A stretch of 64,000 nt of DNA, from contig NC_079879.1 of the NCBI RefSeq assembly GCF_029227915.1, positions 3,970,001 through 4,034,000 on the forward strand, given 5' to 3'. Below the pieces are notes generated by a model. It made no database searches. It was not told the origin of the DNA and saw only the letters and a list, made by a program, of their open reading frames with translations. This DNA comes from Hydractinia symbiolongicarpus (Eukaryota; Cnidaria; Hydrozoa; Anthoathecata; Hydractiniidae). Shown piece after piece: positions 11,277-64,000 of this stretch. The translations under genes were made by a program, and so were the position numbers. Numbering within the stretch: position 1 is the first letter of the stretch; every line of letters begins with the position of its first letter.

Positions 11277-11622
<346 letters not shown>

Positions 11623-12770: not shown

Positions 12771-13394
12771 TCCATGGACCCAGACGAACAAAAGTTGGAA
12801 TAAATCCTTTATATAAAGCCATAGCACCTTCGGTTTTACATGTCCTAATAGCACAGTCTAGTGAACTAGTGTACAAAGTGGTTGCTGATGTGTTTGCCAC
12901 TTTGCGTTGATTCATCATTCGTGTCTTAACAACATCAATTGGATTTGAAGCTATTGCTCCAGCTAGTCCAGCAATAATACTTGACCTGCCGTCTGGGCCT
13001 GGAGAAGCACTTTTAAGACATCAGTTGGATTACATAAAGCAGATGAAAGAGCACCTGCAATTATACCAGCAAACATATTTGATGCCAAAGTTTCATCTTT
13101 TGGATCCTTTGTTATCAAACGTTTGATTCCATGGTAAAGTCCAATTTTAATTGTTTCATATGTCGCTTGGCGTAGTAGTGCAGGCTTTATACCATTATAC
13201 AAAGCCGTCACACCCTCTTCTTTGCTAATCCGGTACATTGCATGCAACATACCTCTGTATCGCATTTGTTTTAATGAATTATTGATTACTTGACCTTGAA
13301 CTTGTAGCCTTGTTTTTGTTGTATCAATAGGAAAAGTACCCATTTCTGCCCCCATTGACGCCAAACCTCCAAAAATGAACGGTTTCACATCCAT
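12770..13394 (-). pseudogene. Mitochondrial carrier retrocopy (SLC25A14/A30-like), deleted and fused to a LINE
   Basis: The minus-strand start at 13394 opens a frame ([17 protein letters not shown]) with no intron. It shows carrier signatures [14 protein letters not shown], the repeat-1 segment [18 protein letters not shown], and NPTDVLK (repeat 2). Just after LLQAQ the sequence jumps to [24 protein letters not shown] of repeat 3, in another frame. About 75-80 residues expected between the second and third repeats are missing and the main frame stops at 12963. The third repeat continues to [14 protein letters not shown] and then changes abruptly into LINE sequence near 12770. Relatives of this family are inner-membrane transporters close to the uncoupling proteins. 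The lack of introns, the internal deletion and the fusion say processed pseudogene; the exon-skipped look of the deletion is inference. Confidence 0.85.
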
Positions 13395-15144
13395 TTTAAA
13401 TTCTTTGTTGCTTTATTTCGGGTTTATAGCTACCTACAATGATACTTCCAACCTTTGTCCCCAGCGACAGCAAAAAATACTAATTGAAAGTTTTCAAATC
13501 GCATGCAGGCATGCTGCACATAGCTCCGTCTGCAATTACTGAATAACCGTACGAAGATCGGTACGTCAAGTACAGTATTTTTGATGTTTCTAAGCTGAAA
13601 CATAGAGATAAAAAATATAAACTAAACAACGGATACAGCCTTTGTCAATCAACGAACACAAAATAGAAAAATACAAAGAGAACCTGCGCCAATGAGCAAA
13701 ATAATGCACGTACAAAATACATAAAACATAAAATACTAACTGATGCATCGTTCCACTGTGCTAGCTTTATCAATGCCGCTGTTTAGAAGTTCATCACGTT
13801 AAGAGATTCCACAGAATAAAAACAATATTTTCGATTTTAAACTTTCACTAGATTCATGTAACCGACATAAGTTTCATGCTGTTCTAACAACATTAAAAAA
13901 AGGAATCCAATGTGTAATCTGTATTCTTTCTAGCTGAATAGTTAGGTGCGCAATATTACAATTTTCTTAATGTGTTGACTAGCTGGGATCGTATCGCACG
14001 ACCAATGCAACGCCCAGGATAAATGTGTTTGCATTCTGCAGATTACTCATTCCCTGCAAGGCATTAAACTAATTTAAATTCTTGTGAAGTACAACATTCT
14101 GGAAATGCGCTGTAAAGCGCGCACCCAATTTCTCTTGACTAAATAAAACATTTAACATCAAACCTAGAACATGTTTCATTTAGACCCTATTTGGTTTATT
14201 TTAATCATGAGAATTGCCTTTATTGGTTTCTGCATTTTCTTCGTGAAAATTGCCCGTATTCCCGAAATGCCAAAAATTAAGAAAGTCAGGAAACTATGAT
14301 GTTGCTTCAAATTATGCCATGACGACGTCTTTGGACGGTGGACGATCTAACGTAATGGTGGCTGAAGGTTTTTAGAACGTTCTTGGACCGTGTGGTTATC
14401 CAGCTATCTGTTTATTTATATCTGACCTAAAAGTAAAAGTAGCCAATATTCTTAAGCAATTATGCTAAATACAGTAGCTTTTACTACTGTCATGAGAACT
14501 TGATCTACAAATAAAACTGACGAGTTATTTTTTTAACTGGATAGGGTAGCAGGAGGCGTTTTCCTGTATTTTATTTAAACCGAATTTATAATAAAGCTGA
14601 TTTGGAAAAGGTTATTAAGCCTATATGGATATACAAGAAAATTTACCTGTACTAATCGGTCAGCCCAGTGTCACGATTAGTTTTTAGACTGTTACGGGAA
14701 CTTTTCCCGCAAAATAAAGCAATTTTGCGCGATGTTTTCGCTTGAACAGGGTAAAATCAAGTTGTAAACTGTGTTTTTATTATTGTTTTGGCTGCGCACT
14801 GTGTTTTTATTTAAACTGAAGTTAGGATCTACTATTTTGGAACAAGGTCATGTGCCTATTCAGATTCACGACACAGTTTGCCGCTACTAAGTGCTTAGTA
14901 CAGTGTTACGATGGGCTGTTAACTTTTTTGGAAAATAATATTTATACCTAAACAAATATGCGAAATTGTTTACCAGTACTGACTGTTCAGCTCGAAGCAA
15001 CACAAAAAAGCTTGACCAATAATATATAGCTAAAACTATATAATTTTTATTTATTCTTGATAATGGGTGTTGACACCCAAAACGCGTCAAAACAATGTCG
15101 TTTTTATTCTCCAATTTAGTCCTTGCCAAAACCAACAAGTTCGA
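13395..15144. other. Intergenic with part of a dispersed repeat
   Basis: 13395-13440 may be 5'UTR of the carrier retrocopy. The rest has no supported gene, apart from the dispersed repeat copy listed at 14405-14790. Confidence 0.45.
14405..14790 (+). repeat. Dispersed non-coding repeat R1, copy 1
   Basis: Shares ordered blocks with copies at about 20.4-21.1 kb and 32.6-33.2 kb: TACTGTCATGA, CAAATAAAACTG, TTGGAAAAGG-TATTA, ACCTGTACTAAT then TCAGCCCAGTGT, and AACTGTGTTTTTAT. All copies have the same orientation. No ORF is conserved among them. Confidence 0.7.
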
Positions 15145-24563: not shown

Positions 24564-25268
24564 ATGGTAAATATGATTTGTTGTTGTCATGTAGAACTGG
24601 CCGAAGACCTTGCAAGAATTGTTTTAGTAATTTTGAGTTAAAAATTCTGCATACAAAGTAAAATAGAAAGAAGGAAAAGATAGGGCATCATAAATAATAT
24701 ATTATTGACTGCTATTATTTAGGTTCGCGTATATTTGTTGATGGTTCTTCTAACCGCATATACGTGGTGTTTGCCAGCAAGCAAATCACATGCTGTCAAG
24801 AACAAACCAATTTCAGATAGCCTGTATGATTTTAAAGAAAATATTATGGTAAGAGTTAAATTATCTTCAATGTACTAAAGTACTGGTTCAAATGAAAGAT
24901 ATTTAACTGTTAAGCTTTAAGTAACTACCGTTATTAAGGGTCCATTGAAACAATCCCATTAATAAAAGAAACCGCATAAATAAAGTGTAGAAAGTAATTT
25001 GCCTACACGTAAGCATATTAGAGCAAGAAAACCTAATACAGTTAACGACAGTCTATTTTTGTCTCTTTTTTTCAAATAAACGATCATTATAATTATTATA
25101 TAGGTGAAACTAGCCAAGGAAAATATCAAGTACTCGCTACGTCATTGCAGTATGTTGTTCAGAAAATGTGAAACAGACAGTGACTGTGGCTGTTTCTCCA
25201 TGCTGAAGTGTTCAAAACTGTTAAGTAGAAAACGATGTGTGCACAGTTATGGTGTCGATCCAATGTAA
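24564..25268 (+). CDS. Secreted six-cysteine peptide, family member 1
   Basis: Proposed exons: ATG alone at 24564-24566 (donor ATG|GTAAAT); 24723-24848 (acceptor TTATTTAG|GTT, donor ATG|GTAAGAG); 25104-25268 (acceptor TATATAG|GTG). All introns are phase 0 and give 97 residues. Exon 2 supplies a signal peptide (VRVYLLMVLLTAYTWCLPA) and a short linker ending FKENIM. Exon 3 encodes the whole cysteine domain, opening with LAKENIKYSLRHC and ending DPM-stop, with spacing C-x6-C-x5-C-x-C-x5-C-x8-C. By my alignment this exon matches member 2 at 34 of 54 residues. AATAAA follows at 25526. If the one-codon exon is wrong, translation would begin at an in-frame Met seven codons into exon 2 with a shorter signal peptide. 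The product is predicted to be exported and disulphide-bonded. Function (signal, defence or venom-type peptide) is unknown; six Cys with CxC at the third and fourth recalls knottin-like folds only loosely. Confidence 0.75.
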
Positions 25269-41584: not shown

Positions 41585-42015
41585 TTGATATTCTCCTATT
41601 GTCTCTTGAAGTAAATGTATCACACAATTATTTCGCCGTAAATCTACCTTGTTTTCAAAAAGAATTTTTTGTGCCACAGAGAAATTATTCTTTTCACCAA
41701 CTCTGATTTTGGCCTCAAACACGTGTATCAACACAAAATTAGCTTTTTATGATGTCGAACATTTAATGAGGCATCAATCAGTCATCATCTTCGAGGACCA
41801 AACGCATTTAATGAGTAGTTACGTACGATATGAGTCTTTCTTTTGTAGAGCAAGGATAAAAATGACTTAGTTGTTAACTTTACCATAGTACTTTATAACC
41901 AAAGTAACATAATTTGAAATTATGTTTTTTTTATTCTTCACTTGTTCTTTGCTCTATAGAAATGATATAACATTAAATAATCATGAAAAGGACACAAAAT
42001 TTAAAGAAAATAATG

Positions 42016-42021
42016 TTTATT
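42016..42021 (-). terminator. Poly(A) signal of six-Cys gene 2
   Basis: AATAAA on the minus strand, about 275 bases after the stop. It is conserved in unit 2 at 52220-52225. A closer AATAAA near 42128 exists only in unit 1. Confidence 0.45.
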
Positions 42022-42293
42022 ATGCATACAGTATATATGAAACATTTACAATTTAAAAGCAGAAGAATATTTAATTTTGCTTATCGTTATTTGATTTCGC
42101 AAAATCGCGGATAACGGTCCTTTATTTCTGTCTATTCAGAGTCATAATGCCGTTCTAAGTTATATATTCTGATTTTCAATGGACTTGGAATTCTTCTTCA
42201 CGTCTTTTAGTTACCATGCATTCCTTAACAACTTAAACATGTAAGAAAATGTTGCAGTAGATGTTGAAAAGCAAGCTCCTCCGTGCTCATAAC

Positions 42294-42859
42294 CTACATA
42301 GGATCAAACTGATACTTGGTAACACATCTCTTTTGATGCAACAATTTCATACATGCAAATACTTGCAAACATTTACAATCAGAATCGTCTTTACATCGTC
42401 GAAACAACATTGGGCAGTGACGCAATGAGTATTTTGTATTTTCTTTTGCCAAAATAATCTAAAATGAAAATAGGTTTGCTAACCAGAAACGTTTTTGTTA
42501 ACGATAACCCTATTACGCCTCTTGTATCATGACAGTGTGATTAAACAGCTATAGATGGGCTATCAACGGTGATGTTTAATTGTACCTTTATGTCTATTTC
42601 CTACATAGATTTTACGTTTCACAAAGTGTCTATAAGATAACCAAGATTATAATCAACGCTGCAAATATTATATATCTAAAAACAATTTTGTTCAAGCAAA
42701 ATTCGAAATATTGCAACTTACAATAAGTTTATCTTTAAACTGATCGACGCCATTTCCTACATCTTTTTTATTTTCTTTTGTTTGACGTGTTGGATGTGTG
42801 GAGACATCTGCGATAGCCAGAAGCAAGAACACTGCACAGATGCATGTCACCAGTTGCAT
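42294..42859 (-). CDS. Secreted six-cysteine peptide, family member 2
   Basis: Exon 1 (42859-42722, 46 codons) encodes a signal peptide (MQLVTCICAVFLLLAIADVS) and a hydrophilic linker ending FKDKLI, with donor ATT|GTAAGT. After a 263-bp intron (acceptor CATTTTAG|ATT), exon 2 (42458-42294) encodes 54 residues plus TAG. These open LAKENTKYSLRHC and end QFDPM, with spacing C-x6-C-x5-C-x-C-x5-C-x8-C. The protein has 100 residues and a phase 0 intron. It matches member 3 at 89 of 100 residues and member 1 at 34 of 54 residues over the cysteine exon. The frame and both splice sites are intact in both tandem copies, which argues for selection on the protein. The product should be secreted with three disulphides; its role is unknown. 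Plus-strand frames overlapping it are shadows. Confidence 0.85.
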
Positions 42860-42940
42860 ACTTAAAGAAATGGAAGATGAAGAACTTTATGTCAGAAGTC
42901 AGTCGCCTTTAATATATCAATTAACATTTACTAAGAGAGG

Positions 42941-42960
42941 GACGTTATTTATATCATTAA
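42941..42960 (-). promoter_or_regulatory. TATA-like box of six-Cys gene 2
   Basis: On the minus strand TAATGATATAAATAACGTCC lies about 90 bases before the ATG. Unit 2 has TAATGGTATATATAACGTCC at the same place (53149-53168). It is a TATA-like core flanked by conserved sequence; the role is inferred. Confidence 0.4.
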
Positions 42961-42999
42961 TTCTTTTGTTTATAGAACAAAGAGGACACCAATTGCAGT

Positions 43000-45622
43000 A
43001 ATAAGGAAATTTGGCATCAATTAAGTTGACTTTTGCGATATTTAGGCACAGGAAACGAACAATTAGTCATTCTTTTACGAACTGAAATAACACTTGAAGT
43101 CATTGATTTGACAACGTATCCAATAACTAAACGTTATTATGACTGTTAAGCAATGCCGATTAAGAGTAAGCTCTATTTCGTGATTTCCTTAGCAAGAAAT
43201 TTAACTTGTTTGGTTGAATTTTATTAATTTCACCAACCGTACTAAGCGAGGCATACTATTTCAACAAGTTTAATGAAAGTTATTTATTAAACTAATTGCG
43301 ACTAATTGCGAAATAATTATGAATAAACATGCATTTTCTGTTTGATAAAGAAAACAGTTTCATTTTTTACAGAAACGAATTACTTGAAGTAAAAGAAGAA
43401 GTACAAAAATAATTCTTTAGCAGGAAATATTAAAACGGCCTAAAACCAATAGTGTGACTGCTTCAAACACAGAATGAAATGTGCAGTAGACTCTCCGAAA
43501 TTCAACTAGCTTTTTGTTCATATAATTTTCGTGTTAAGGTGAAAATTCCACAAGAAGTCTCATATGTACCTCTCCATAATTCAAATCCCAATTAATCGAA
43601 CAAATCAATAATTTTGACGTTATTTTCTGTCGTTAGAGCATAACTGCGTCATGTGTAAATGGTTTAAGCAAATAGCATCTCACAAAGATTTCTAGCTACT
43701 GTTGATTTAGATGATTTCTGACTTTACCCCTTTTGACAATAAAGCCGAACTAAACTTCATCGATACACAGATATTTCAAAACATTTCAACTGTATATTGC
43801 GAACACATTTTCTGGTCACGTGGGTTAAAATTGTAGGCTACTGTAAAACGAAAAGTTAATTTTTCTTAGAATTATAAAATGTGTGTTATATGAATCATGT
43901 CTGCCAATGCATGTCAAACAGCAGGTTTCGTTTTTACCTGCAAGTTATGAATAAATTAAACTGTATTATTTTACTCCGCATAGCTAAGCTGTAAAGGGGA
44001 ATTTAAAGAAGCTAACTAAACAAGCATTCTTTATAAAATCTTCATAAATGTTCCGTTTTGCCACACGTAAAATGTCAGAAAATTTATTATTAATTTTGCT
44101 TAGAATGTGTTTTAGTTTTACTTCCATCATTCATAGGAAATTTATAATTACAAATAAAAGAAGGAGGAGATGCTAACATATGTAAAAACACCTTCAATTG
44201 CAACTTCATATACGGATATTAGTCAAAGATATACAAGATATTACATTTTCTGCGCTTCATGATCACTACGAAGGATGCATCTGAAGTAATTAAGAGCGAT
44301 ACACATGTTAGCGCTGCCGGCACTGGTTTCCCATTTTAATTATTGTTACTATGTGACGTAATGTAGTGTACGTGTATTGTATATTTAGTGAACGACGTAT
44401 CTGTGAATTTGTAATACTCTGCTCTGATAGGAAACTCACATTCACATATTCTCGATTATTTCTGTCGCACAGTTAATGTCTTTGAGTCAGGAAAAGTGTC
44501 AATAACATAAAGAAGGTACCGTTTATAGCTAAGATACAGGTTCTACAAAAAGATCACAACCCTGCGAAAAGCTTGAACTCGAGCGACCCACCAAATGTCA
44601 ATATTTTTAAAAGAAAACAGTTCAAATTAAAGATTTGTATACAAACAATTGGCTGGAAATATCTTTCATACTCATATATGCACCATAGCTAATACCATCT
44701 TAAATTCCTCATAGTATCTTAAATTCTAGTCATAACGTACTATGTTATTTAAACTAAAATTACACGTTTTCAGAAATACTCATTCGCGAAAATGTATCCA
44801 CGGAACCCATCCTCTCTGTCCTTTTACAGAAATATGCACATGTAATTAAAAAAATAATTCCACCTTAGAAGTTATGTCCAAATCAAAACTATATTTTTAC
44901 ACTAAGCAATTTTCACTAATAAGACAGGCAGATACAAAGGCAGAAAATATAACAAATTTTCTCTTGATCCAGTACAAAATCGCTTCTGCAGTTATATGCA
45001 CACGAATTTTTGTAATACGCAGCTTTTTTATTGTTTTTTTAATTTTGTTTTAGAGATTTCAGATGTTGTGTTAATAACACTACTTCAGCAAGTACTAACT
45101 TATTTTGAATTTGGTAAGTATTATAATGCAGCGGGAAGAAAAAACTAGAGTTGCTTATAAAAATTTTCCAATTGATTTGACATCTTCTACTGTCCTACGC
45201 GGTGTCGAAACTTATAACTCATAACATTTTCTGATCTTAGTCAAAATTATACATGATGCAATTTGTTGTAATTAGCAATAGCGTCACAGTGGTGCACATT
45301 CATTGTTAATTAAAAGTTGTCTTCCTCAGTTTGACCTTGATACAGTAGTTCACATCATCCACCTACATAAAGACCACATATCATCATGAATATATCAATA
45401 ACAACAAAATTCAACAAATACTTCCATCGATTGTTGTACTTGAATATTATTTTTGAGAGAGAGCAGAACAAAATGTTTGTTAAAGGCGATGCTATTCATC
45501 TTATAACATTTCATAACTGCCATTGTGAACTGCTCGTATGTGGAAGAATCCATACCATTGCTTTCTATTGATATTGTTCTGAAACAAAATTTTGGTATTA
45601 GTGATTGCGCTGAATGTCTTAA
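43000..45622. other. Upstream part of unit 1, no further gene seen
   Basis: Aligns with 53210-55900 of unit 2 without a shared open frame. Probably holds regulatory DNA of gene 2. Confidence 0.45.
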
Positions 45623-46338
45623 CCCTATTCGGTCCGGGTTTTTTTTTTGAACATATTATGACCAGGGGGGAGGGGGGGGGGGGGGAGGGGCGGATTCCCC
45701 TTCTTAATAACTTTTCATAAGTTTGCTTAAATTGAAGACAACTTGGCAGAATTACACTACGTCACAAAAGAAACAAAATGTCGGTAAAAATTTTTTTCTT
45801 GTGTCAGCACATTTTATGTGACGTCATAAAAGCTTGGAGTTTGTTCAAAATACCAACTTCTGCTTGAAATGAAATTAATTTAGTTCTAAGCGAATTTTTA
45901 CATTCTGTTTGAAGTTTCTAAAACCTACAAAAAAGTTATTTAACATATTTTCCAGTTTTTGCATAGGTCGTTTAAAAAATTGCCGAAAATTGCCCGAAAA
46001 TCGGGAAATGATATTAATTACGTGTCCAGAAAATGGAAAATGATTCTTCTTGATGAAACAAAGTTGTGTTGCAAGTTTTAAGTTCTAAGGATAATCCTAA
46101 CAAGAGTTACTATATTACCCCCATTCATAGAGATTTTTAGGGGTAGTTAATAATTTAATTGATAAATAGACAATATTAAAGCCTCTGAAAGGCATGAAAC
46201 GTAAAAAATTGGTTTGCCGGGGTGAAATAGATAAATATTGAAACTCAGCAAATATCATAGCCATGGAGCGTAGCGTTAAGGAGATATTAAAAGAAAACCG
46301 TCGGTGGGGTGAATCCGCCTCCCCCGGATCGAATAGGG
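45623..46338. mobile_element. piggyBac-like MITE with TTAA duplication
   Basis: Ends CCCTATTCGGTCCGGG and, inverted, CCCTATTCGATCCGGG (15 of 16), flanked by TTAA (45619-45622 and 46339-46342). Unit 2 shows the empty site GAATGTTTTAAAACTG near 55912 with a single TTAA. Length is 716 bp with no intact ORF. A CGGATTC block recurs near both ends, extending the TIR. TTAA specificity and CCC-starting ends are typical of piggyBac. Confidence 0.85.
45665..45690 (+). other. Poly-G tract (G6-A-G14-A-G4), possible G-quadruplex
   Basis: Near-uninterrupted G run inside the left end of the MITE. It could form a quadruplex, and it is also a likely site of assembly or length error. Confidence 0.8.
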
Positions 46339-46434
46339 TTAAAACTGAAATTTTTTGGATGACAATAATGCACAAAAATTTGACATGTAAAAGCCAAGTC
46401 TTGTTTTACAGCAGTAGCAGTGTATGCATGAAAG

Positions 46435-47211
46435 CTTGGAGGAAAGAATACGGAAGGAGAAACAACTTCATTTCTGTACGCTTTAAATGCATTGAATTGT
46501 CTATTGTTTTTAATTTCAAAAGAATCAGTGCGTGAGGTGCTCGACCGAGTCTTTTTCGCAAAGAAATGATCAAATTCCATATTCTCCTTTAATAGGGGCT
46601 AACTTTTTTTTATTGAAATCTGACTGTAACACGCTGCAGGCACGTGACATTTGTATGGAAAGTGTGCCTAATATAAGCCAGTAAGCATTGCTGTTAAAAA
46701 CTTCAACAATATGTTTGGAAATAAGCGTTTAACCATGATATTAACCTATTTTTGCAGGCTTGAGTATACCACTTTGATCATGAAAAACAACATAGATAGA
46801 TATGCGCCGGACGAGTGCCGACAAAATGTGGGCTGGATTAATGTTTATTCTAACTAAAGAAATAACTTCTTGTAACAGAACGTCGTTTTAAAACGAGATA
46901 TAAACTTTTTCTTTTTGTTTACAAAAGTGTCGAGCATGTGCTTCTTCGCTAATTATGTTAACATAAGAACAAAAGAAATTTTACCGATTTCAATATGGCT
47001 TCTTGTTTTGATAATATTATCAAATCCATCATCAAATTATCTAATTGTTTTTATAACCAATCATAGTTGCGAATTGTTATTCACAAATAATTTAGTCACA
47101 CAACCGCCAAAATTTCAAATTAAGTTTCTATACAGACACCTGCTAGAACCTCACGCAGTGTTTCAATGGAATTAAAAGAGTTGTTTCTCCTTCCGTATTC
47201 TTTCCTCCAAG
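46435..47211. mobile_element. 777-bp element with perfect 33-bp TIRs and 7-bp target duplication
   Basis: CTTGGAGGAAAGAATACGGA begins a 33-bp end that is repeated perfectly inverted at 47179-47211. ATGAAAG is present on both sides (46428-46434 and 47212-47218). Unit 2 has one ATGAAA and no element (about 56005). No transposase is encoded. The superfamily is uncertain from a 7-bp duplication. Confidence 0.85.
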
Positions 47212-47218
47212 ATGAAAG

Positions 47219-48829
47219 TAGTAATACGAGTCTTATGTTTTAACCAGCAAAAAAAAATGGACTGTGTATCATATCACCCCTCTACCAACGCCAACTATAA
47301 TATCTTACTTAAATTATGTTTGAAATAATTTTTCAGCAGACGGAAATTACAGATATAAAATTGTGTTTAGCATGAATCAGCTTCAAAATATGCAACAGAC
47401 CGTTTATTTTGCGTTAAAATTTTTAACACTTGAGAAAACGCAGCCTAATTAACGCCACTAGGGTAATTAAACTCCTTCGCAATCAATTAAGGTAATCTAT
47501 TTGGTCGCTAAATTAGTTTGAATTGAATTAAGAGAAAAAAGTTTTGTTTGTATCATCTTGCGGAAATAACTTGTTTTAAAATCTTGTTTTAAAATTTACT
47601 AGTCTTATTATCATTAAATGAAGTTTGTCAATACTTCGACTCAAGATATATTGTGTAAAAACTTTGGTCATTTTAACTCCTTCTTAGGAATTATATAAAG
47701 CAGTTTATCATAATTCAGTCCTATGCAAGCATAATTTATTTGTCTCCGCTAAGTCAAAAAATACCCCTGCGTCACAACAAGGAGTTAAATGTGATAACAT
47801 ATTGCTTAATTTACAATGCAAAAAATGTTGTATCAAAAGGCCAAGTTTCTCTTGCCATTTTTAGTGGATGATTAAAATCTGAGGTCAATGTAGATTTTAA
47901 AAATAGGCAAAATATAAAAAATAACAATTCTGTCTCCCCTTTTTAATCAATCTCTTGCAACGATTGCTCTTTCTTCGCAAAGATACTAACGGTAGGAAAG
48001 TCAATGAAGCTGGTCATTTCTGTTCTGGTGTAGCTGTCTATAAAAAATGGCGGGTGCGTAGCAATAAAATGGAAATATTTTAGATATGCATTTAGATTTC
48101 GTTTAGTATATCCAATAAGTGTGATGTATAACTATGTTTTTGTCAGAATATTATAAGGTTGTGCCCTGCTAATTTCACTCTAAGACAGTATTACAAAAAG
48201 AAAAAATAAGCTTTCCGAACGATTCACTTTTAATTTTATTTGGCTAATTGTTTTTTATTGAAACATTAAGCGTTGCTTTTTTGTTGTAATTATTTACCAC
48301 GTCGTTCTTTCTCTTCGCCCATCTGAATTTAGAAGTTTTTCTTTATGACAGAAAGAATACGCCGATTATTAAGATGGAGTTTGATTAAACTCGAGAGTAT
48401 TACTTGTAAGAAAAAGAGAAGTGAATATTGCACAAACTGTCACACAAACATGTCACATAAGCCTGTCGTATAAACAAATTCTTTATTATGTGGTTTTAAG
48501 AGAAGTAATAAAGAAAATCTAATTGTGAAAATTATTGTCATTTAATGCATTTGGCATAATTAAACGCCTTTGCAGTTAATTAAGTTAATCGAGCGATTGA
48601 GTAACTTAGTTGGATTTACAATCCAAGCAATTACTTCGTAGTCTTCATCATTTCACGGAAATAACTTTTAGTTGTAGCTTTAATTAAGGAAATTGGTAAC
48701 TATAGCTACGATAAAAATGACTTTAGGCAGCTTGTAGATAGCCATACCATCTTCACCAAAACAAATTAAGAACAATTCATATTTTAGTACCGGTATGTCT
48801 GTTAGTTAAAATCGTAGCTGATTTACTAA
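47219..48829. other. Unit 1 sequence, no gene seen
   Basis: About 600 bp at roughly 47830-48430 has no counterpart in unit 2; it is either an insertion without visible ends or a deletion in unit 2. Confidence 0.45.
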
Positions 48830-48950
48830 CGGTACCAGTTCATTTATGTTTCAACGCTTGCGCCATTAGATCGTATCAACGTGAATTTAGTGATAATCTT
48901 CCAATATGACTGAACTCCGCCGCGTTAAAGGGTAAAATGATCGACAAAGC
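48830..48950 (-). repeat. Satellite-monomer fragment in unit 1
   Basis: ACGGTACCAGTTCATTTATG and the following GTGAATTTAGTGATAATCTT match the monomer arrayed at 57.4-60.6 kb. It has the same orientation as the copies at 57466 and 58234. Confidence 0.6.
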
Positions 48951-49513
48951 AACACGTTTGAAATTGACTTAAACTTTTTCTTAATAATTGTGACAAATCT
49001 GGCCTCTCGAATACAAAAAAACATTCTATCAATAACTGTAATGGCATTAAATATTTTCCTATAGTCTATTAAAGGATATGTATCCCACAATTACTTCGCT
49101 GTGAACTTACTTTGCTTTAAAAAAATAAATAGCTTATGATGGAAAATTGTGTAATTATTGTCAGGACAATCAGCATGCGCGTGTGACCGCTCTCCGGAAA
49201 CGCAATCTGAATTGTGTGCCACAGAGAAATTATTATTTTCATGAACACTGATTTTGGCCTCAAAATCGTGTGTCGACACAAAATTAGGTTTTTATGTAGT
49301 CAAGCATTTAATGAGCCATCAATAAAATGGTTTCCACCCTCGAGGTTGAAACGCTTTTAATGTGTAGCTACATAAGAAACAAGGATACCAATTACTTAAT
49401 TGTAAACTTCACCATATCACTTTATAACTAGAGCAACACAATCAGAAGTTATGATTTTGTTTTTATTCTACGCTTGTGTTAATACAACCTTTGCTGCATA
49501 GAACTAATAAACA

Positions 49514-52175
49514 CTAGCTGTTTCCCGTGGAAGAATCCACTGTATTCCATTTAATTTATGTAGCAGATATATGTCCATCAAAAAACAAACAATACAGCAG
49601 TGCGCATCTTACATCTGCATTATTATATAAATGACCAAAAAAATTAAAGGTGTGCAACAACTGCAGTGTATATGTGACATTTAAAATCTAAATCTACTAA
49701 AATTACTGCTCTGACCATCTGACAAATGCGAAAATTATTCGGAAAAAAGTTTTAAAAGCATTTCAACATACATCTCACCCATAAAATTTAAATCACTCAA
49801 AACGCCACATATATACAAAAAAGCTGATCAATGTCAAACACAAATCTCTCTCATTGTATATGTTAAAATCAGTTAGTTTATTGCAAACCCTGCCAAAGGT
49901 TGACACAAAATATGAAAAATAAACAATAAATTTTGCCTAAGTAGAAATTTTTATCTAAGGTGTTAAAAAGGGATTTGCAAGGATAAATTATAATGCAATA
50001 AAACATTATTTGATATATTGCATACGGTCCTTCCTCACCAAACTTTAGACAAAATGCCAACAAAATAACGGTGTTTAAATCTAAAATTAATAAAGTCCTT
50101 TTAGCAATTTGCATGCTGTTTTACCATCAATAAAGTAAACAAAATTTCAAATCTCACATAGTATTTAGTCACAAATTTTCATAAAATATATATATAAGTC
50201 ATAATGAGTCATGTTAAACAACAGCAATCAATCTGTATATAATTTTATTTTATGTCAATTTTTGCACCAATTTTGCAACACAAAATATATACAAATTCTA
50301 AATAATACTAAAATCTCTTATTTTGGTCCTTCGCATACCGACGGTCTCCCACAAAAGTTTAATCAAAATGAAAAAAATGAGAGGTAACGACAAAATCAAA
50401 GTTTGCAAAATTTAATTATTTCGGTACATATATCTACTGCATATGCCCTCTAAAACAATATTTTAATCCAAAATGCCTAAGAAAGACAGTTTGCAACAAA
50501 AATCAGTTATTTCGATAATATTGCATACACTCTTTCCTCACAAAAGCTTCACAAACTGTAAAAAAAGAATGGTTGTAGGGAGTGCTTCTGATTCAACAAA
50601 AAAAGTTTTTTTGACATATTGCATCTAGCCCTTACCCATTAAATCTTACACAAAATTTCCAAAACTATATACGATTTAGAACACATCAAATTTAAATCGA
50701 GAAGGATCAGTCATTTCGATATATTGCACGGAGTCCTCCCCAGTAAGAATTTATACAAAATATAGAAAAACAAAGCTTGCAAGGTGTAAAATTGAATTCT
50801 TCTTCTGTATATATATATATGGTCCTTCCTCGCAAAATTAACATAAAATGTCAAAAAGGTTCAGATATAACATCTAACACAACAAAAATCAGTTCTATCA
50901 GTATATGTCATGTCATTGTCTTCCACCAAATGTTCCCCTTAAAGTTTCACAGACACAGCCTGTAAATTAAAAACAACTAAGATCAGGCATTTTGGTCTAT
51001 TTCATACCATTCTGTTCCAAATAACTTATAAAATGTAAAAATTGAGTGGTAAGACAGAAATTTGCAAAATTCCATTTTTTTAAATGCATGTATATTATAT
51101 GCCTTCTACAACAATAAGTTAATTCAAAATGTCAAAAAGAAGAAAAAAATAGCTTACAAAGAGTATAAAATTTAAATCAACAAAGTAGCTCTTTTGGTGT
51201 ATTAAATATAAGCCATACGCACAAAAGTTTACACTAAATGTAAGAAAATGGTTGTGTTTAGTAATTCTAAATTAAGAAAAGTCAGTTCTTTTAGCATGCT
51301 GATTAAGGTTTTTGCCCACAAATTCTTACATGAAAATGTCAAAACCACAATTTGAAACAAATTAAATTTACATTTTAAAAATAAGTAATTTCTGAACTTT
51401 ATTTTCAGAATATTTGGAGGAAAAGAACTTCGCAAACCAAAAAAACCCAGGAAAATGTTTAAAATCTTCAGGGTTAATAACGTTTGATGGGTTTTGTGGG
51501 AATATATATACTGGGAATCTTTAGTTTAAAGCTAGCATTAGCTAGCTACAGCAGCTAATAGCTAGTCACTTAAATATAAACTGGAGACTTAGCTAGGTAT
51601 AAAGAACATGGCTACATATATATATATATATTCCTAGCTAGCTAGCTAGTTGTTGGTGGTGGTTGGCTTTTTATGATGCTAGCTATAAAACATGTCTGGC
51701 AACAATAATATAGTAAAAACTGAAAATAAAACATGAAAAAAACCTTACAGAACCTTGCTATGATTAATTTATAAAACGATGCTCTTCTTCAAATGTTTTT
51801 TTAAAGATTTATTTTGAATGAAAGAGTAGAGAATACTCAAAAAGAACAGCCATCTTTTTCGTAAACACAATTTCCGTTTTATGCTAGGAACTTCATTTAA
51901 CAGTCCGTATGCTTTGTGAATATCTAATACCGTTTCATATGTAGCGATACCTATATATATATGCTAACATAGAGTTTTTTGGCATAAGGGTATATATATT
52001 TATATCGTTATTAGCAGCGGGTTATATATTTACACCTTATGTGCGATTTCTATGAAGTACATCCCTAATCTTTTTAGTTAAATTTTAGCGTACAGCCACG
52101 TCATAAGAAAGTGACCCGTGATTTCCGTGTCGTGGACTCACAGTTTTACTCACGCAAGGGAATTAATATATAAGA
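49514..52175 (-). mobile_element. Non-autonomous Helitron, 2.66 kb
   Basis: On the minus strand it starts A|TCTTATATATTAATTCCC (52175) and ends with hairpin GTGGA-TTCT-TCCAC, then GGGAAACAGCTAG|T (49514). These are the Helitron A-TC...CTAG-T rules with a subterminal hairpin and no target duplication. Unit 1 preserves the uninterrupted site near 41960. No Rep/helicase is encoded. A ~95-bp tandem array fills the middle. Its 5' 250 bp is nearly identical to 63747-64000. Confidence 0.85.
49830..51390. repeat. Diverged ~95-bp tandem array inside the Helitron
   Basis: About 14 degenerate units, each with a CAGTTATTT-GATATATTGCAT core, then GGTCCTTCCTCAC-AAAA, then TTTACACAAAATGTCAAAA. Unit cores lie near 50011, 50327, 50418, 50505, 50610, 50712, 50797, 50890, 50985, 51080, 51187 and 51280, so the period is 85-107 bp. 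Confidence 0.75.
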
Positions 52176-52219
52176 TTTTATTCATTATGAAACAAAAAGG
52201 AATTGAAAAATAATTATTG

Positions 52220-52225
52220 TTTATT
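52220..52225 (-). terminator. Poly(A) signal of six-Cys gene 3
   Basis: Minus-strand AATAAA at the position conserved with unit 1, about 275 bases beyond the stop. Confidence 0.45.
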
Positions 52226-52497
52226 ATGCATACAGTATATATGAAACATTTACAATTTAAAAGCAGAAGAATATTTAATTTTCCTTGTCGTTATTTGCTT
52301 TCGCAAAATCGCGGATAACGGGCCTTTAATTCTGTCTATTCAGTGCCATAATGTCGTTCTAAGTTATGTATTCTGATTCTTAACGGACCGGGAATTCTTC
52401 TTTACGTTCTTTAGTTATCTTTTATTTCTTAACAACTTAAACATGTTAGGGAATGTTGCCATGGATGTTGAAAAATAAGCTCCTCTGTGCGCATTAG

Positions 52498-53068
52498 CTA
52501 CATAGGATCGAACTGATACTTGGTAACACATCTCTTTTGATGTAAAAATTTCATACATGCTAATATTTGAGAACATTTGCAATCAAAATCGTCTTCACAT
52601 TGTCGAAACAGCATTGGGCAGTGACGCAATGAGTACTTTGTATTTTCTTTTGCCAAAGCAATCTAAAAAGAAAATAGGTGTGCTAACTAGAAATGTCTTT
52701 GTTATCGATGACCCTGTTACGTCTCTCCATTCTCACGAAAGTATGATTAAACTCCTATAGATGAACTATCAACGCTGATCTTCAATGTATATACCCTAAT
52801 GACTATTTCCTACATAGCTTTTACGTTTTAAAAAGGGTCTATAAGATAACCAAGATTAAAATCAACGCTGTATATATTATATGTCCAAAAACAATTTTGT
52901 TCAAGCAAAATTCAAAATATTGCAACTTACAATAAGTTTATCTTTAAACAGATCTACGCCATTTCCTACATCTTTTTTAGTTTCTTTTGTTTGGCGTGTT
53001 GGATGTGTGGAGACATCTGCGATAGCCAGAAGCAAAAGAACTGCACAGATGCATGTCACCAATTGCAT
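52498..53068 (-). CDS. Secreted six-cysteine peptide, family member 3
   Basis: Exon 1 (53068-52931) encodes signal peptide MQLVTCICAVLLLLAIADVS and a linker ending FKDKLI, with donor ATT|GTAAGT. The 268-bp intron ends TTTTTAG|ATT, and exon 2 (52662-52498) encodes 54 residues and TAG. The cysteine spacing is identical to members 1 and 2. The protein has 100 residues. Compared with member 2, I count 3 changes in exon 1 and 8 in exon 2, mostly between the second and fifth cysteines; every Cys, the LAKENTKYSLRHC lead and the KRCVTKYQFDPM end are kept. Start, splice sites and stop are intact. It lies next to a Helitron inserted just beyond its 3' end, which does not disturb the gene. Role unknown, as for member 2. 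Confidence 0.85.
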
Positions 53069-53148
53069 TTTTAAAGAAATTGAAGATGAAGAACTTTATG
53101 TTAAGAGTCAGTCGCCTTTAATGTATCAATTAACATTTACTAAGAGAG

Positions 53149-53168
53149 GGACGTTATATATACCATTA
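53149..53168 (-). promoter_or_regulatory. TATA-like box of six-Cys gene 3
   Basis: TGGTATATATAACG on the minus strand, about 90 bases upstream of the ATG, aligned with the TATA-like box of gene 2. Confidence 0.4.
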
Positions 53169-53209
53169 ATTCTTTTGTTTACAGAACAAAGGGGACACCA
53201 ATTAAAGTA

Positions 53210-56200
53210 ATAAGGAAATTCGGTATTAATTAAGTTAATTTTTTGCGTTATCTAGACACAGGAAGCGAACAATTACTCATTCTATCATGAACTGAAATAA
53301 CATTTGGAGTCATTGCTTTGAGAACGCATTTAAGAACTAAACATTATTAGGACTCTGGTAAACAATGCCGATTAGGGGCAAGGTCTTTGTCGTCAGTTTC
53401 TTACCAAGAAATTTAAATTGTTTGGTTGGATTTTTATAATTTCACACGCCGTACTGAGCGATACATATTCCTTCGAAGCGTTTAATGAAAGTAATTCATT
53501 AAGCTAATTGCGACTAATTGCGAAATAATTATGAACGAACATGCATTATCTGTTTGATAAAGAAAACAGTTTTATTTTTTAACAGACTTGAATTACTTGA
53601 AGTACAAAAAGAAGTACAAAATCACCCATGCAAATAAACTTTTCCTCTCACTGAGTTTTCTCTAGCAGGAATAGTTAAACCGGCGTAACGCTATTAGTGT
53701 GACTGCTTTAAAAACAAAATGAAATTAGCAGTAGACTCTACGTAATCAAACTACCTCATTTTTATATAATTTTTTTGTTAAGGTGAAAATTGCATAAGAA
53801 GTCTTATATCTACCTGCCCATAATTCAAATTCCCATTATTCGCACAAATCAATAATTTTGACGTTAGAGCATAACTTCGGCATGTGTAAATGGTTTAAGC
53901 AAATAGCATCGGACGAAGTTTTTTAACTACTGTTGATTTATATGGTTTCCGACACTTCTCCTTTTTGACAATAAGGCCGAAAAAACTGCATCGATACACA
54001 AATAATTTCAGTAACTCTATATTTCGAAAACATTTTCTGGTCACGTGAATGTTCGAGTTATAGCCTACCTAAAGTGTAGTGAATTTTTCTTAGAAATATA
54101 AAATCTCCAATATATGAACCATGTCTGCCAATGTATATCAAACAGCAGGTTACGTTTTTATCTGCAAGTCATGAATAAATTAACTCGTATAATTTTACTC
54201 CACATAGCTAAGCTACAAAAAGCAATTTTACGGAGCTAACTAAACAAGCATTCTTTATAAAATGTTGATAAACGTTTCGTTTTTCAAAGCGCAAAATGTC
54301 AGAGAATTTGTTATTGTTTTCCTATAGAATGCATTTTAGCTTTACTACCATCATTTATAGGAAATTATAATTACAAACAGAAGAGGAGGTGCTGGCATAT
54401 GTAAATGACTTCCATTGCAACTTCATATACGGATATTAACGGAACATCAAAGAAATGAAGAGATTACGTTTTCCACCATTCACGATCACTACAAAGGATG
54501 TTTCTAAAGTAATTAAGATTGATATACATGTTAGTGTTGTCGGCACTTGTTTCCCACCTTAATTATTACTACGCTGTGACGTAATCCAGTTGTACGTGTG
54601 TTGTATATTTAGCGAACGACGTATCTGTGAATTTTTAATACTCTGCACTGATAGGAAACTCGCATTCACATAAGCGTTATTATTTCTGGCGCATATTTAA
54701 TGTCTCTGGGACAGGAAAATGACCACAACTCTGAAAAAATATCGTAACATTGTGAAAAGTTTAAACTTGCTCGACCCGCCAAGTATATCTTTTGCAAAAT
54801 TTATAAAAGAAACCAGTTTTCTGTAATTTAATAGCCCAGTCCTTAATTGTTTTTACTTTAACGACTATAAAGATTTGTATACAAACAACGGGCTGTAAAT
54901 ATCTGTCATACTCATATCAGTTTATTCTCTTCTGGCTTATGCACTATACGTATTAAAATCTTTTATTGAAATTCGGTCATACCGTACTCTTCTTTTTGTA
55001 CCTAAATATTTTCAGAAACACTCATTCCCGAAAATGTATTCACGTAAACCCCTCCTATCTCTCCCTGTGCGGAGATATGGACATGTAATTAAAAATAACA
55101 GATTCATTCTTTAAGTTATATCTTTCAAGTCATGTCCACGTCAAAACTATTCTCTTGCAATCAGCAATTTTCACTGAAACAACAAAAGCAGATACAAGAG
55201 GCGGAATCCAATAAAAAATTGCTTCTGCAGTTATATGCACACGTAGACTTCAACAACTTTCTACTTTTTTTTGAATTTTTTAAATATAGATTGCGCCAGG
55301 AAAAAGAAATAATGCTCGTTGTAAAAAAATTGTCTAACTGGTTTGATATCTTCTACGTTCCCAAACTGTGTCGCGAGAGATTTTTTTGTCACTTCAATTC
55401 TTTGTAATAACTCCCGGACTTTAAGCGAAACAAGTGCAAACTCATAACTCATAACATTTGCAGATTTTAGTCAAAATAAAACATGACGCAAATTTTCGTG
55501 GTTAGCAATAGCATCAGAGTGATACACAGTCATTGTTAATTAATAGTTGTATTGCTCAGTTTCACCTTGATAACGTAGTTCACATCATGCACCTACATAA
55601 AGAGAACTGCATATCATCATGCATAAAGATCACTAACAACAAAATTTAACAGATATTTTCGTACTTGTTGTACCTAAATAAAATTGTTGATGGAGAGAGA
55701 GAGAAAAAAGCAAAATGTTTGCTAAAGACGATACTGTTCAACATTCGATATCTTATCACTGCTATGGTGAATTCCTCGTATGCAACCTTGTTTCTTTTAA
55801 AATCCTTTGAAAAAAGGGTATCAGTTAAACATAAATGTGGAAGAATCCATACCATTCGTTTCTATTGACATTGTTCTATAACACAAAATTGGTATTAGTG
55901 ATTGCGCTGAATGTTTTAAAACTGAAATTTTTGAGATGACAATAATGCAGAAAAAATTGACATGTAAAAGCCAAGTCTTGTTTTACAGTAGAAGCATTGT
56001 ATTATGAAAATAATCACACGAGTTAGTTGCGCGATCAAGACGTAAATCAGCAGTAAATTGACTGTGTATAATCAAATCACATCTCTTCTGTACCTACGGA
56101 AGCTATAATACCTCACCTAAATTATGTTTAAATTGATTTTTTAGCAGACTGAAATTACAGATAAAACTGTCTTTAGCATGCATCAGCTTAAAATTATACA

Positions 56201-57170
56201 ACGGACAATTTAAAACATTTGTTTTCTAACATTTGTGAAAACGCAGCCTAATTAACGCAACTGGGGCAATTAAACACCTTCGCAAAAAATTAAGTTAATA
56301 CATTTTGTCGCAAACTTAATTGAAATTGAACTGAGAAAAAAAAGTTTCATTCGTATCATCTTACTGTAATAACTTGTCGTAAAGTCTTGAAAAAATTTAC
56401 TGGTCTTATTATCATTAGATAAATTTGGTCACTACTTTGACCAAAAAAAGTATTGTGTAAAATTTTTAGTCATTTTAACTCTTTCTTAGGAAGTATATAA
56501 AGCAGTTTGTAACAATTCAGTCCCTGCAAGCACAATTTATTTGACTCCGTTAAGTACAAAAATTATCCCTGCGTCACGTCAAGGAGGCAAATGTGATAAG
56601 AAATTGTTTAATTTGAAATGAAAAAGAGGTGTGAATTTAGCTCATAATGTTACACAAACATGTCACATAAGGCTGTCATATAAATGAATTACTTTTCATT
56701 CAGTTCTAGGAGAAATGCAGAAAATCTAATTGTGAAAAATATTCTCATTTAATGCATCTGGCATAATTAAACGCCTTCACAGTTAATTAAGTTAATCCAG
56801 CAATATAATAACTAAGTTGGATTTGCAATCGAAGCAATTACTTCTTAGTCTTCTTCATTTCACGGAAATAACACTTGGTTGTAGCCTTATTTAAGTAAAT
56901 TTGTAAATATAGCTACGATAATGAGATTTTAACCAGCTTGTAGTTAGCCATACTAAATCTAAAATCTCATTTTAGGCTTCAATTTCATCTAGGATTTGAT
57001 ACCTGCTAAATACACAAATGAGAATTCACAAATAGAAAGCGTGAAAAATTTAATGGCAAATTTTATTTCCAACACTTCGAACACCTCTCTCTACCACGTC
57101 TTTAAGTGTCATCGAAAATGCAATAATGTTGATAGAAAATTAAGAACAATTTATATTTTGGTACCAATAT
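53210..57170. other. Upstream part of unit 2, no further gene seen
   Basis: Collinear with 43000-48760 of unit 1 apart from the insertions there. The open frames (for example 55132-55407) are not conserved in unit 1. The frame 56996-57316 lacks an ATG start and overlaps satellite sequence. Confidence 0.45.
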
Positions 57171-57179
57171 GTCTGTTAG

Positions 57180-58440
57180 TTCCAATACTAGTCAATTTAC
57201 TAACTGTATCACTTTATTTGTGTTTCAACGTTTCCTCCAAAAAATCGTACCAGCATGCATTCAGCGATCTTTCACTGGGTTTCGCCTTGTTTAAGGGTGA
57301 AATGATCGACGAATAGAACCGTTTGGAATGGAATTAAACATTATCTTAATAATTGTAATAAAGTTGACCTCTCGAAAAGAAGAATGACATTTTTTCAACT
57401 CTACGGTCAGTTTACATTCTGTACTACCATTTTATTCAAAAGTTAAAAGAGATTGCGTCGTTTTCACTGTGGTACCAGTCCGACCAGTTAACACGAACAA
57501 CGGAAAAAAACACCTCCGAAAACAACATTTCATTGACTATCTAGCTGTACCAGTTCAGTTGGGTTTCAAGGACTGCGTCACACATTCGTACTAACACGAA
57601 TTTAGCGATAATTTTCCGATATTACAGTTTTTGTCTATTTCTCAGGTGAAACGATAGGCATATGGAGACCCGATTAAAACATTTTTGTACTTTGAAATGA
57701 TAATTGAGATAAATGATTTCGACTGAGGAAGAATAACTTTCCTTATCCCGTTGGCACGATTGCTTCAGCTCCGAGACGAGCGTACTCGCTGCGTTAACAT
57801 ATTGTGGGAACATTAACTTGTTTTATTAATTTTCAATATGGTGTAGCATTATAACGAGCGCCCAAAAAACAGCAACAATTGCAAAAATTGCATTTATTGA
57901 ATTCTTCGCAGTTCCAGTCCCTTTTTCTGCATCAATATCGTTACACATTGGATTAGTATGTAAAATAATTTTTAAATTTGGAGTCATAACTGCGACAAAT
58001 AAAGCCTTTCGGCTGCGGAATATAACATTTAAAAACGAAAAAGTATTAGGCAGTTTTTACTCTCCCTCTACTCAGCGCCTGTAACACGCGCAGAAGAAGT
58101 GAAAGATTCGAAGACAACATTTTCGTGACATTCCAGCGGTGCCATTTCTTTTTTGTGTCATGATGTGAACTGCAGAGCGATATTGATGATTGTGCTAGAG
58201 GTTTATTCAAAAATGAAGATAAATAAATCATATTTCACTGTGATACCAATCCTAGCCCTTAATGCATGTTAAAAAAGTGAAGACAGTTTCGAAAACTGCA
58301 TTTCGTTGGCTTTTTAACGGTACCGGTCGGTTTTTGTCAAAACAGTTACATCAAATATTAATACCAACATGAACTTAGCAATATCTTCCGATTTTACCAG
58401 AATTCTCCCCCTTTATTAGTGAAATAAGGGGAACGTGTGA
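57180..58440 (-). repeat. Satellite monomers, minus orientation
   Basis: At least three diverged partial monomers, with conserved CACTGTG-TACCA (57466, 58234) and GGTACC-GT followed by AACACGAATTTAGCGATA-type blocks (about 57230, 57550, 58320). Confidence 0.65.
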
Positions 58441-60758: not shown

Positions 60759-63746
60759 TAATTAAAAGATAATTGCTCAGGAATAAAGTAATCAAATTTG
60801 AGCCGAATTTTAGTTTACCTAGCAATTTTTCTTACCGACATTTTTGTTGTTGTTGAGTAAAACATTTTTTCACCCATTTTAGTTAACAAAGTTTAATAGA
60901 GAATACGGACATCAATTTATAATAAAAAATTTTCAGCTTGTTTTACCACAGATATATATATTTAGTTAAGGTTTTTTGATAAGAATTTTAATTAAGAAAT
61001 TAATTTATTTAATAATTTAGTATTAAAACCAACCCACAAAATTCTGCTTCCCAGGGTAATTTTAATTCCCTTTCTGAAGCCCCTTTACTACAACAAATCA
61101 CGAAACAAATTGATGCAGAATCGGTCAGACAGTAAGTCATCTGTGGTAAAATTTGCATGCAAAGAATGTGTTCGGGAAAATATGCACACCAGATTTACCA
61201 TGCATATGTAGGCTATTTTGTTTAGTAATTACAATAAGTAAGTAACTTGAGGTCATAAACAACTTTTTATAATGATGACAGTAAAAACGGTGAAAGTTGT
61301 TAGCGGTGATGAGTTTGTGTAGATAGATTTAGATGAAAATGTATATTGTTATGTATAGGCAAACAGTGGTCATGATGAATATGTTTTACTGAAACTTTGC
61401 GCTTGCGGCTCTTTTAAGCGGACACTTACGTGAGCAAAGATCTTATCAACTTTAAAAAGGTGTCCCCTTTGGAGGAATAAAGGAAATCGCGGCCAACTAA
61501 CTACTCTAATGGTATTTAAAGCTATACTAATACTCATTTAACACTAACCTTAATAAACAAATCAATAATGCAATGTTTGGTAGACACAAGCTATTGCCTC
61601 ATGTTGTTACCAAATGTTGATAATCAAATTGTATAAAAAAATTAATTTTGCCAATGCTGCAAGAAAACCCACCACATCTGTACTACTACACTTCAAACAT
61701 AAAATTTTTCTCATAAGTTATCCTGTTTTCATGTTATTCTGCATTTTCTCTTGTATATTTCGCGGGACGAAAACGATTATAAAAATGGGTCAATTGTTTA
61801 ACTGATTGGTAATCATTAATATGTTGTACGTTTCGCATTTCTTAATTAACTTTCTCCTTATATTCGTTTAAAGCGGGATACATCATATTCAGAATATGAG
61901 CAACTTTTTCTTCAACCTTTACGAAGCTATAAATTTGTTCCTCTAGCTCAGGTATATTCAATAAACAAGGAAAGTTAAACGTACCCTAGGTCTAAGTTAA
62001 TGAAAACGTTTTTAAAATGTTTTTTACTTTTCCTCGTTCTTCATCCAATGCAGGGCAAGATTTAAGAAAAGGATATCAATTTTTTGCAAAGTCTATTGCC
62101 ATAAATCACCACTTGGCATCTAAGATGGGTTTTGTGTAGAACTGTTTACACGATGTTAATAAAAATGGCTCTGGAATATACGAATGATCTTACATTACAT
62201 GAATAAAACAGAATAAAAGTTCAGAGACAAGCGATCAACAAATGATCCCTGTTTTGTTTGTGCGGTTTGCTAATACAGGCCACATAAAACCGATTTGCCG
62301 ACAATTTTATGCTTGTCAACAGTCCGAAATCAACCCTATTCGATCGATCGTTAACTGGCAACTTATGATAAACACTAAAGATTCCTAAATTATATACTTT
62401 ATGGGTAGCAATGAATACTCTCCGATACTATATATTTATTGGGGGTGAAGAGTCATTTTATAATTAGATTAGCCCTGTAAATATACTTTATTTACCTACT
62501 ATCTTGCTATCTAACATACTTAATAAAGTTTCTTCATTAAAAGCGATCTCTTAGCAGTTTTTTAGCAAATGCTGGGATTCTAGGAAGAAATTATATCAAT
62601 AATCAAAATGCCAGATCAACGTTATCTGTAGTTTAAAAGTTAACGTAACTGTACACTGTCAAAAATATTGAAAAATACTATTGCAAAAATTGACCTATTG
62701 CAATATTTTTAGGCCACGATGGCTATGGTCTCGACACATTCTAGTCAATAAGTATAAAGCGAATAACTACCCTGCATACATAATACACCTTCGTAATTCC
62801 GCGGTAAAAATACCACATAACTATATTTATGGCGTTTAACAGCTTTCGGTAACACGCAAAGAATCGAATTTGTGCCAAGTTTTTAGTGAGAGCGTTTTTC
62901 TATTTTTAAATTCAGTTGGGGTTTTAAAATTAACACTACTATTCCAGCCTAGAAACGAGACAACCCCTCTCCCCCTCCAAAAAAAAAGAAAAGAAAAAAA
63001 AAAGAAAGTTGCTTAGACTTTTATAATTTTTGCGAGGTAATAACTTTGTCGTTTATTTTATTACATTGAGATCCGTGCAATGGCAATTATAGGTTTCAAA
63101 ACGAAACCTCTATTGTTACTAAGTCGCTGCTACGCTACAATCGTGATCCACCTTTCGTTTCTCTGTTAAAATAATACGAAACAAACTAAATCCAGGGGAA
63201 GATTTAGAGTTCGGTCACTGGCACTTGCCTAAGTATTATTTGCCAATGCGAAAATTCTGGACCCTCTTAAATCAGAAATTTTGTGACGTAAAGAAAAATC
63301 TCACCGAAGTCGTTAAAATTTAAGGAAGCAGAAAGAGTGGAATTAGGGGATGGTGCATTGGAATAATACACTCTTCCTTCTGTTATTGCTTCGAGGGTGT
63401 AACCGGTTTTTTTGATAAGTTAGGCTAACTTCTTCAAGCTGTAATTCAGAAGTGTTTCTGATTCAACATTTCAACAGAAAGTCGGGTGACGAAACGAAGA
63501 AAATAACTGTGTCATTTGTGATTGTAGAAAAAAACAGTCGTGGCATTGATTACTTAATAAAAAATTACATAATGTGCAAATTTCATCAAAGTGGTCTAAA
63601 AATACTCCTAAGTAGTAAATTTTAAGTCAATATCTTACCATTTACCAGAGTTATTTCACTTTTTACTTCTGCGAAATAGACCTGAGAAAGATCATTTATG
63701 GCTAAATCCTTGATATTTTCCTTTTTTTTTAATGTTAGCTGTTAAA
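60759..63746. other. AT-rich intergenic, no supported gene
   Basis: No motif-bearing ORF. An isolated CCCTATTCGATCGATCG at 62335 resembles the piggyBac-like MITE end but lacks TTAA next to it. A purine-rich run lies at 62975-63010. Confidence 0.45.
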
Positions 63747-64000
63747 TCTTATATATTAATTCCCTTGCGTGAGTAAAACTGTGAGTCCACGACACGGAAA
63801 TCACGGGTCACTTTCTTATGACGTGGCTGTACGCTAAAATTTAACTAAAAAGATTAGGGATGTACTTCATAGAAATCGCACATAAGCTGTAAATATATAA
63901 CCCGCTGCTAATAACGATATAAATATATATACCCTTATGCCAAAAAACTCTATGTTAGCATACATATATAGGTATCGCTACATATGAAACGGTATTAGAT
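63747..64000 (+). mobile_element. 5' end of a second Helitron, cut by the window edge
   Basis: A|TCTTATATATTAATTCCC starts at 63747. The next ~250 bp are the near-identical reverse complement of 51926-52175, with only a few differences. The element continues outside the window. Confidence 0.85.

Follow-up and report, generated by a model that had tools for sequence, protein, structure and literature searches.

Knottin miniproteins are tough molecules that serve elsewhere as venoms, inhibitors, and signals. In cnidarians, several venom, antimicrobial, and neurosecretory peptides come from tandem, cationic, disulfide-rich families (PMC10945409, PMC10210398, PMC12225738). The antimicrobial families of Hydra are paralogous, cysteine patterned, and genus restricted (PMC10945409), toxin-like peptides are reported from cnidarian neurons (PMC10210398, PMC12225738), and those cnidarian cystine-knot peptides that turned up in the literature examined come from sea anemones (PMC9866706, PMC10210398). 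A similar family was found in a 64,000-nucleotide stretch of Hydractinia symbiolongicarpus DNA (the window; positions 3970001 to 4034000 of the 35.0-Mb contig C5), in which three genes, A, B, and C, would each encode a secreted peptide with six cysteines. The explanation that best accounts for the data, to which we give an even chance, is that these genes are members of a tandemly expanded secreted family with the inhibitor cystine knot (ICK, or knottin) fold and a ligand-type function. The structural type is probably correct, and the function is held with less confidence.

The features of the three genes, and the duplicated segment that carries two of them, are as follows:

42722..42859, minus strand: gene A exon 1, with start codon, predicted signal peptide, and N-terminal segment (46 amino acids), read directly from the DNA
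42459..42721, minus strand: gene A intron, phase 0, 263 nt
42294..42458, minus strand: gene A last exon, 54-amino-acid six-cysteine module and stop; modeled with AlphaFold2
41998..42293, minus strand: probable 3' untranslated region (UTR) of gene A, with AATAAA at 42021 and a counterpart in gene B
52931..53068, minus strand: gene B exon 1, read directly
52663..52930, minus strand: gene B intron, phase 0, 268 nt
52498..52662, minus strand: gene B last exon, six-cysteine module and stop
52201..52497, minus strand: probable 3' UTR of gene B, with AATAAA at 52225
24564..24566, plus strand: gene C start codon, the last bases of the first exon, ATG followed by GTAAAT
24567..24722, plus strand: gene C intron 1, 156 nt
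24723..24848, plus strand: gene C exon 2, predicted signal peptide and N-terminal segment
24849..25103, plus strand: gene C intron 2, phase 0, 255 nt
25104..25268, plus strand: gene C last exon, six-cysteine module and stop; modeled with AlphaFold2
41998..49032, no strand assigned: duplicated segment, second copy at 52201-57398, 75 to 87% identical, in pieces

This exon reading bore out the gene spans given by the initial annotation (A, 42294-42859, and B, 52498-53068, minus strand; C, 24564-25268, plus strand), along with the common phase 0 intron and the 165-nt last exon, stop included, with the spacing C-x6-C-x5-C-x-C-x5-C-x8-C. When the exons were joined, splice sites and frames were intact in all three genes, as had also been claimed. 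The precursors of A and B are 100 amino acids each and that of C is 97, assuming a splice from the ATG at 24564 to 24723; the donors of A, B, and C are GTAAGT, GTAAGT, and GTAAGA, and the acceptors ATTTTAG, TTTTTAG, and TATATAG. Exon 1 of gene A reaches a maximum 11-residue hydropathy of 3.27 and is 94.2% identical to that of gene B. Secretion is suggested by the hydropathy of the N-termini, and the genes are presumably transcribed, the models being predictions from DNA. A six-frame scan of the window with relaxed cysteine spacing returned exactly three places, corresponding to A, B, and C, and a profile built from the three found no fourth member in the window (next best E 0.17). Echoes at 501-572 and 56473-56562 were rejected as chance, since reading in three frames gave short partial similarities closed by stops. 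The GC content of the window is 29 to 39% in 2-kb steps.

With last-exon tblastn E values within the window of 1e-31 for A-B and 7e-22 for A-C, the likeness of the three genes is not due to chance. Over the 54-residue module A and C share 63%, and the 67 nucleotide differences between their last exons cause just 20 residue changes. None of 10,000 neutral simulations was equally conservative, and only 0.03% escaped any cysteine loss. In the segment before the first cysteine (the arm), 11 of 12 residues are identical between A and C while seven codons are silently changed (permutation P 0.010). The signal from A-B was weaker, with 23 substitutions and 11 residue changes (P 0.02; nonsynonymous divergence [dN] 0.054, synonymous divergence [dS] 0.196), and 43% of simulations were likewise free of a premature stop. 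Taken alone, this pair provides modest evidence of constraint.

Genes A and B lie in the two copies of the duplicated segment, which ends shortly past the probable 3' UTR of gene A; their last exons are 90.9% identical, their introns 86.3%, and their flanks 81 to 91%. The only significant DNA match between A and C (E 7e-4) falls within the cysteine exon. The statement that the surrounding DNA had drifted therefore holds for C but not for A and B, whose near flanks remain alike. A scan of the A-B segment for other shared coding exons yielded no convincing second gene; many frames align, in either orientation, but DNA so similar would be expected to show this. Within the probable 3' UTR, identity between A and B is 91.3% over 150 nt (42000-42149), versus 81.2% in the adjoining 144 nt. 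An inverted repeat of 257 bp, 99.2% identical (51922-52178 and 63744-64000), ends ∼20 bp from the B duplication unit.

A search of the window's own assembly (480.9 Mb, 76 contigs) gave 24 candidate exons, all of which were scored and matched and all of which lie on contig C5, a count that could be a lower bound according to the search tool's warning. They form four sequence groups, and queries from the 12.4-Mb and 3.79-Mb groups retrieved the identical set. Twenty-two are uninterrupted, and every one of these keeps the six cysteines in the same spacing (L010 adds a seventh). That short, spliced genes encoding secreted peptides with six cysteines form a family, as proposed, is strongly supported. 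The family of three described initially exists but is larger than was thought. The two interrupted exons are a copy at 34663937 with an in-frame TAA and a relic at 12429852 with a TGA and lost cysteines. Fifteen uninterrupted loci and the relic lie at 3.79 to 4.39 and 12.39 to 12.47 Mb, and eight loci (seven uninterrupted) lie at 34.42 to 34.99 Mb, at the contig end, in a region that is either a large duplicate or a second haplotype kept in the assembly. The copies at 3.79 to 4.39 and 34.42 to 34.99 Mb stand in near-colinear order, with seven matching pairs 94 to 98% identical over ∼4 to 5 kb. In viral and prokaryote collections, 59 and 73 stretches fitted the pattern, and no relative was confirmed among them.

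An upstream signal exon was present in all 22 loci surveyed (A, B, C, L009 to L024, and L026 to L028, with L025 and the relic set aside), that of L013 to L016 being recognized solely by similarity to the exon of C, as its hydropathy was under the threshold set in the script. Scripted splicing yielded complete precursors for the three window genes and for 12 of the 21 loci elsewhere; the other nine are 34-Mb copies, one stop bearing, and the relic, and the 81-residue model of L028 is provisional because its exon 1 donor is uncertain. In three groups (that of C, the 12.4-Mb group, and the 3.79-Mb group), an AG acceptor marks the beginning of the signal exon, and an intron separates this exon from the start codon. 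By the first pattern, 14 of 16 loci had an ATG followed by GT 156 to 435 nt upstream; a looser donor added L019 and L020, completing the three groups. As a control, ATGGT[AG] was counted 100 to 450 nt upstream of the signal exon, where it occurred in 16/16 loci (10/10 representatives), and in equally sized windows lying further upstream, where it occurred in 23 of 144. In the A/B group, the signal exon itself holds the ATG, and the split-start site occurred in 0/6. Annotation easily overlooks small spliced genes whose start codon sits on a separate exon.

Each precursor is composed of a predicted signal peptide, short variable segment, conserved arm, six-cysteine core, and a tail ending in PM. 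In an alignment of the 16 distinct proteins, residues K5, K9, S11, L12, R13, C15, F19, C22, D27, C28, C30, C36, R44, C45, V46, P53, and M54 are invariant, and the core from C1 to C6 lacks tryptophan throughout. The 12-residue arm is strongly conserved (consensus KENVK-Y/F-SLRH), with a mean entropy of 0.56 bits at positions 3 to 14, against 1.02 to 1.56 in the loops between cysteines and 0.85 in the tail. Its unusual fixity suggests a specific partner; as an amphipathic helix it did not exceed shuffled sequences (0.68, 0.47, 0.085). In 20 chosen pairs of last exons, a subset of all possible pairs, the NG86 method gave dN/dS below 1 in all 15 that could be computed, from 0.035 (L020-L021) to 0.62 (C-L018); one of these 15, A-L023, was near saturation (dS 1.98), and the other five pairs were saturated.

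The fold was examined by profile and structure comparison. All 22 uninterrupted loci have six cysteines with the C1-x6-C2-x5-C3 type of start expected of ICK members. AlphaFold2 models of A and C, with a predicted local distance difference test (pLDDT) score of 70 to 76 in the cysteine core, showed an ICK-type strand layout with C5 and C6 in a predicted hairpin. The sequence and fold matches, none significant, were mostly to cystine-knot peptides, with Dickkopf in addition; among Pfam families, Toxin_12 (PF07740) was listed for 11 of the 16 members (best 16.7 bits, cutoff 21) and squash inhibitors (PF00299) for 8 (best 15.4 bits, cutoff 22). A knottin-like topology is thus supported, if weakly, and is the best-supported reading of the fold, whereas the initial annotation had called it only a loose analogy.

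Several results weigh against this assignment. No module among the 16 reached a Pfam cutoff, EGF_3 was listed for 2 (best E 0.02, 15.6 bits, cutoff 28.5) and Nodulin_late for 5, and fold matches in the PDB all had E values of 1.2 or worse. The Foldseek results for C mix ICK entries with unrelated proteins, mean pLDDT came near 60 in only 2/5 models of A and 1/5 of C, the arm was modeled below 50, and the AlphaFold2 alignments held three sequences. The C1-C6 core alone carries just +1 to +4 in the window genes. Moreover, one residue separates C3 and C4 in all 16 members, while many ICK toxins, and the scorpion ICK consensus (PMC3694633), have these cysteines adjacent.

The three window precursors also fell below Pfam cutoffs, sequence and profile comparison gave no significant PDB relative, and a library of viral structures gave a best E of 0.26. 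Additional PDB lists re-examined Foldseek's 30 and 57 chains, leaving families outside them in play. With the 3 precursors and 16 modules, neither a ShK family nor a Prokineticin, Dickkopf, or colipase family appeared in Pfam at E up to 10, HMMER filters dropping most matches above 0.1. Affinity to Prokineticin/Dickkopf, also raised initially, fails as membership because the family has six cysteines, not ten; EGF, Kazal, and defensin readings were rejected on their customary spacings. Literature searches, including five formats of the cysteine spacing, found neither the spacing nor the family, with thin coverage of subscription papers, most of which lay outside it. The description of the family as unrecognized holds within these sources: Pfam cutoffs, PDB relatives, and printed spacings.

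Functionally, our best guess is a disulfide-locked extracellular ligand used in venom, defense, or neurosecretion. The peptide would be secreted from the cell, three disulfides, expected to pair 1-4, 2-5, and 3-6, would lock the core, and the arm and the C5-C6 hairpin might bind a membrane protein of the target cell, an ion channel or receptor; the site of use could be venom, epithelial defense, or neurosecretion. A role in venom would be unsurprising, given that 10.5% of venom-like transcripts in a Hydractinia nematocyst-enriched transcriptome had unknown annotation (PMC8917316), although nothing ties these genes to venom.

The probabilities of the alternatives overlap with that of the secreted ICK family, since most share the knottin fold. 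The peptides could instead be antimicrobial or mucosal defense peptides, secreted onto the epithelium and acting on bacteria. The module is cationic, the genes form tandem clusters, and the lineage-restricted Hydra families offer a parallel (PMC10945409), yet conservation is highest in an arm of mixed charge where exact residues are kept (S, L, and R invariant in 16/16), making specific contact likelier than membrane action; we consider this unlikely. Comparable weight was given to a signaling ligand or neurohormone whose arm and knot bind one dedicated receptor within the animal. The low arm entropy, the silent codon changes between A and C, and the toxin-like peptides of neurons (PMC10210398, PMC12225738) speak for it, but even leaving out the 34-Mb duplicate region, 15 uninterrupted loci whose loops diverge are many for one hormone, and inspection by eye revealed no conserved dibasic processing site. 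Somewhat less probable is a hydrozoan-specific ligand family in which the knot is a scaffold and the arm, KENVK[YF]SLRH, recognizes one conserved receptor while the loops diversify; if true, this would represent a system of signaling or recognition restricted to one chromosome, in a colonial animal that regenerates.

A six-cysteine fold other than the cystine knot, either new or like half of colipase or Dickkopf, is again improbable, on a par with the defense role: the best fold matches include Dickkopf chains, all PDB fold matches are poor, and the C3-x-C4 step is unusual, but hairpin and strand placement fit ICK in both models and Dickkopf and prokineticin domains have more cysteines. A protease inhibitor like those of squash, with loop 1 (C-x6-C) as reactive loop, is doubtful. 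Squash chains head the PDB profile lists and the Pfam model recurs as described, but the match ends at or just past C3, C3-C4 is x1 rather than x3, position 17, where the reactive residue would be, holds M in 9/16 and K in 7/16, and the best score lies below the cutoff. Finally, decaying duplicates or chance open frames, to which the stop-bearing copy and the relic might point, are very improbable given 22/24 uninterrupted exons, invariant cysteines, and the low dN/dS.

Elsewhere in the window, a class A peptide-type G protein-coupled receptor was detected in two open frames at 3222-4622, minus strand (7tm_1, E 1e-18 and 2e-16), with neuropeptide Y, opioid, substance-K, and related receptors as nearest solved chains. 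A mitochondrial carrier gene occupies two overlapping open frames at 12700-13412, minus strand (E 3e-18 and 1e-30). On the plus strand, a reverse transcriptase fragment (RVT_1, E 4e-4, below cutoff), presumably from a Penelope-type element, and the frame after it occupy 9014-10474, and a long tetranucleotide-type repeat array at 11270-11700 is open in three frames.

Returning to the secreted family, a hydroid set of two dozen loci with clear exon anatomy and a fixed arm offers testable material on peptide evolution, namely, how a single scaffold gives rise to peptides of venom, immunity, and the nervous system. Compared with known systems, the first half of the module, C-x6-C-x5-C, is that of squash trypsin inhibitors, whose second half runs C3-x3-C4-x-C5-x5-C6 instead of C3-x-C4-x5-C5-x8-C6. 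Dickkopf, prokineticin, and colipase domains are likewise secreted and cysteine rich, and part of Dickkopf1 superposes on the model, but they have ten cysteines. Hydra NDA-1, also secreted and cysteine rich, has ten as well (PMC5614986), against six here. Hydra HyCWR, Clytia PF1, sea anemone SA8, and coral SCRiPs are lineage-restricted cnidarian peptides that, like the present ones, would be secreted, carry cysteines, and come in paralogous sets (PMC10945409, PMC12225738, PMC10210398, PMC2652719). Judged by their descriptions rather than their sequences, they are distinct: HyCWR shares six cysteines but is tryptophan rich (PMC10945409), and SA8 has a ShK-like spacing. Closest are the ICK peptides (scorpion lambda-MeuKTx-1, 8f2f; spider gating modifiers; Metridium Ms11a), which are also small and secreted with six cysteines. 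Most members begin CX6CX4DC, as does the scorpion consensus CX6CX4DCCX2-4K/RC... (PMC3694633), and the hairpin predicted to hold C5 and C6 would be a further likeness, whereas C3-x-C4, the five-residue loop 4, the arm before C1, and the lack of a significant sequence match set the family apart. We read these proteins as cystine-knot-type peptides; the fold class is known and the family is new, marked by its unusual C3-x-C4 step and its strongly conserved arm.

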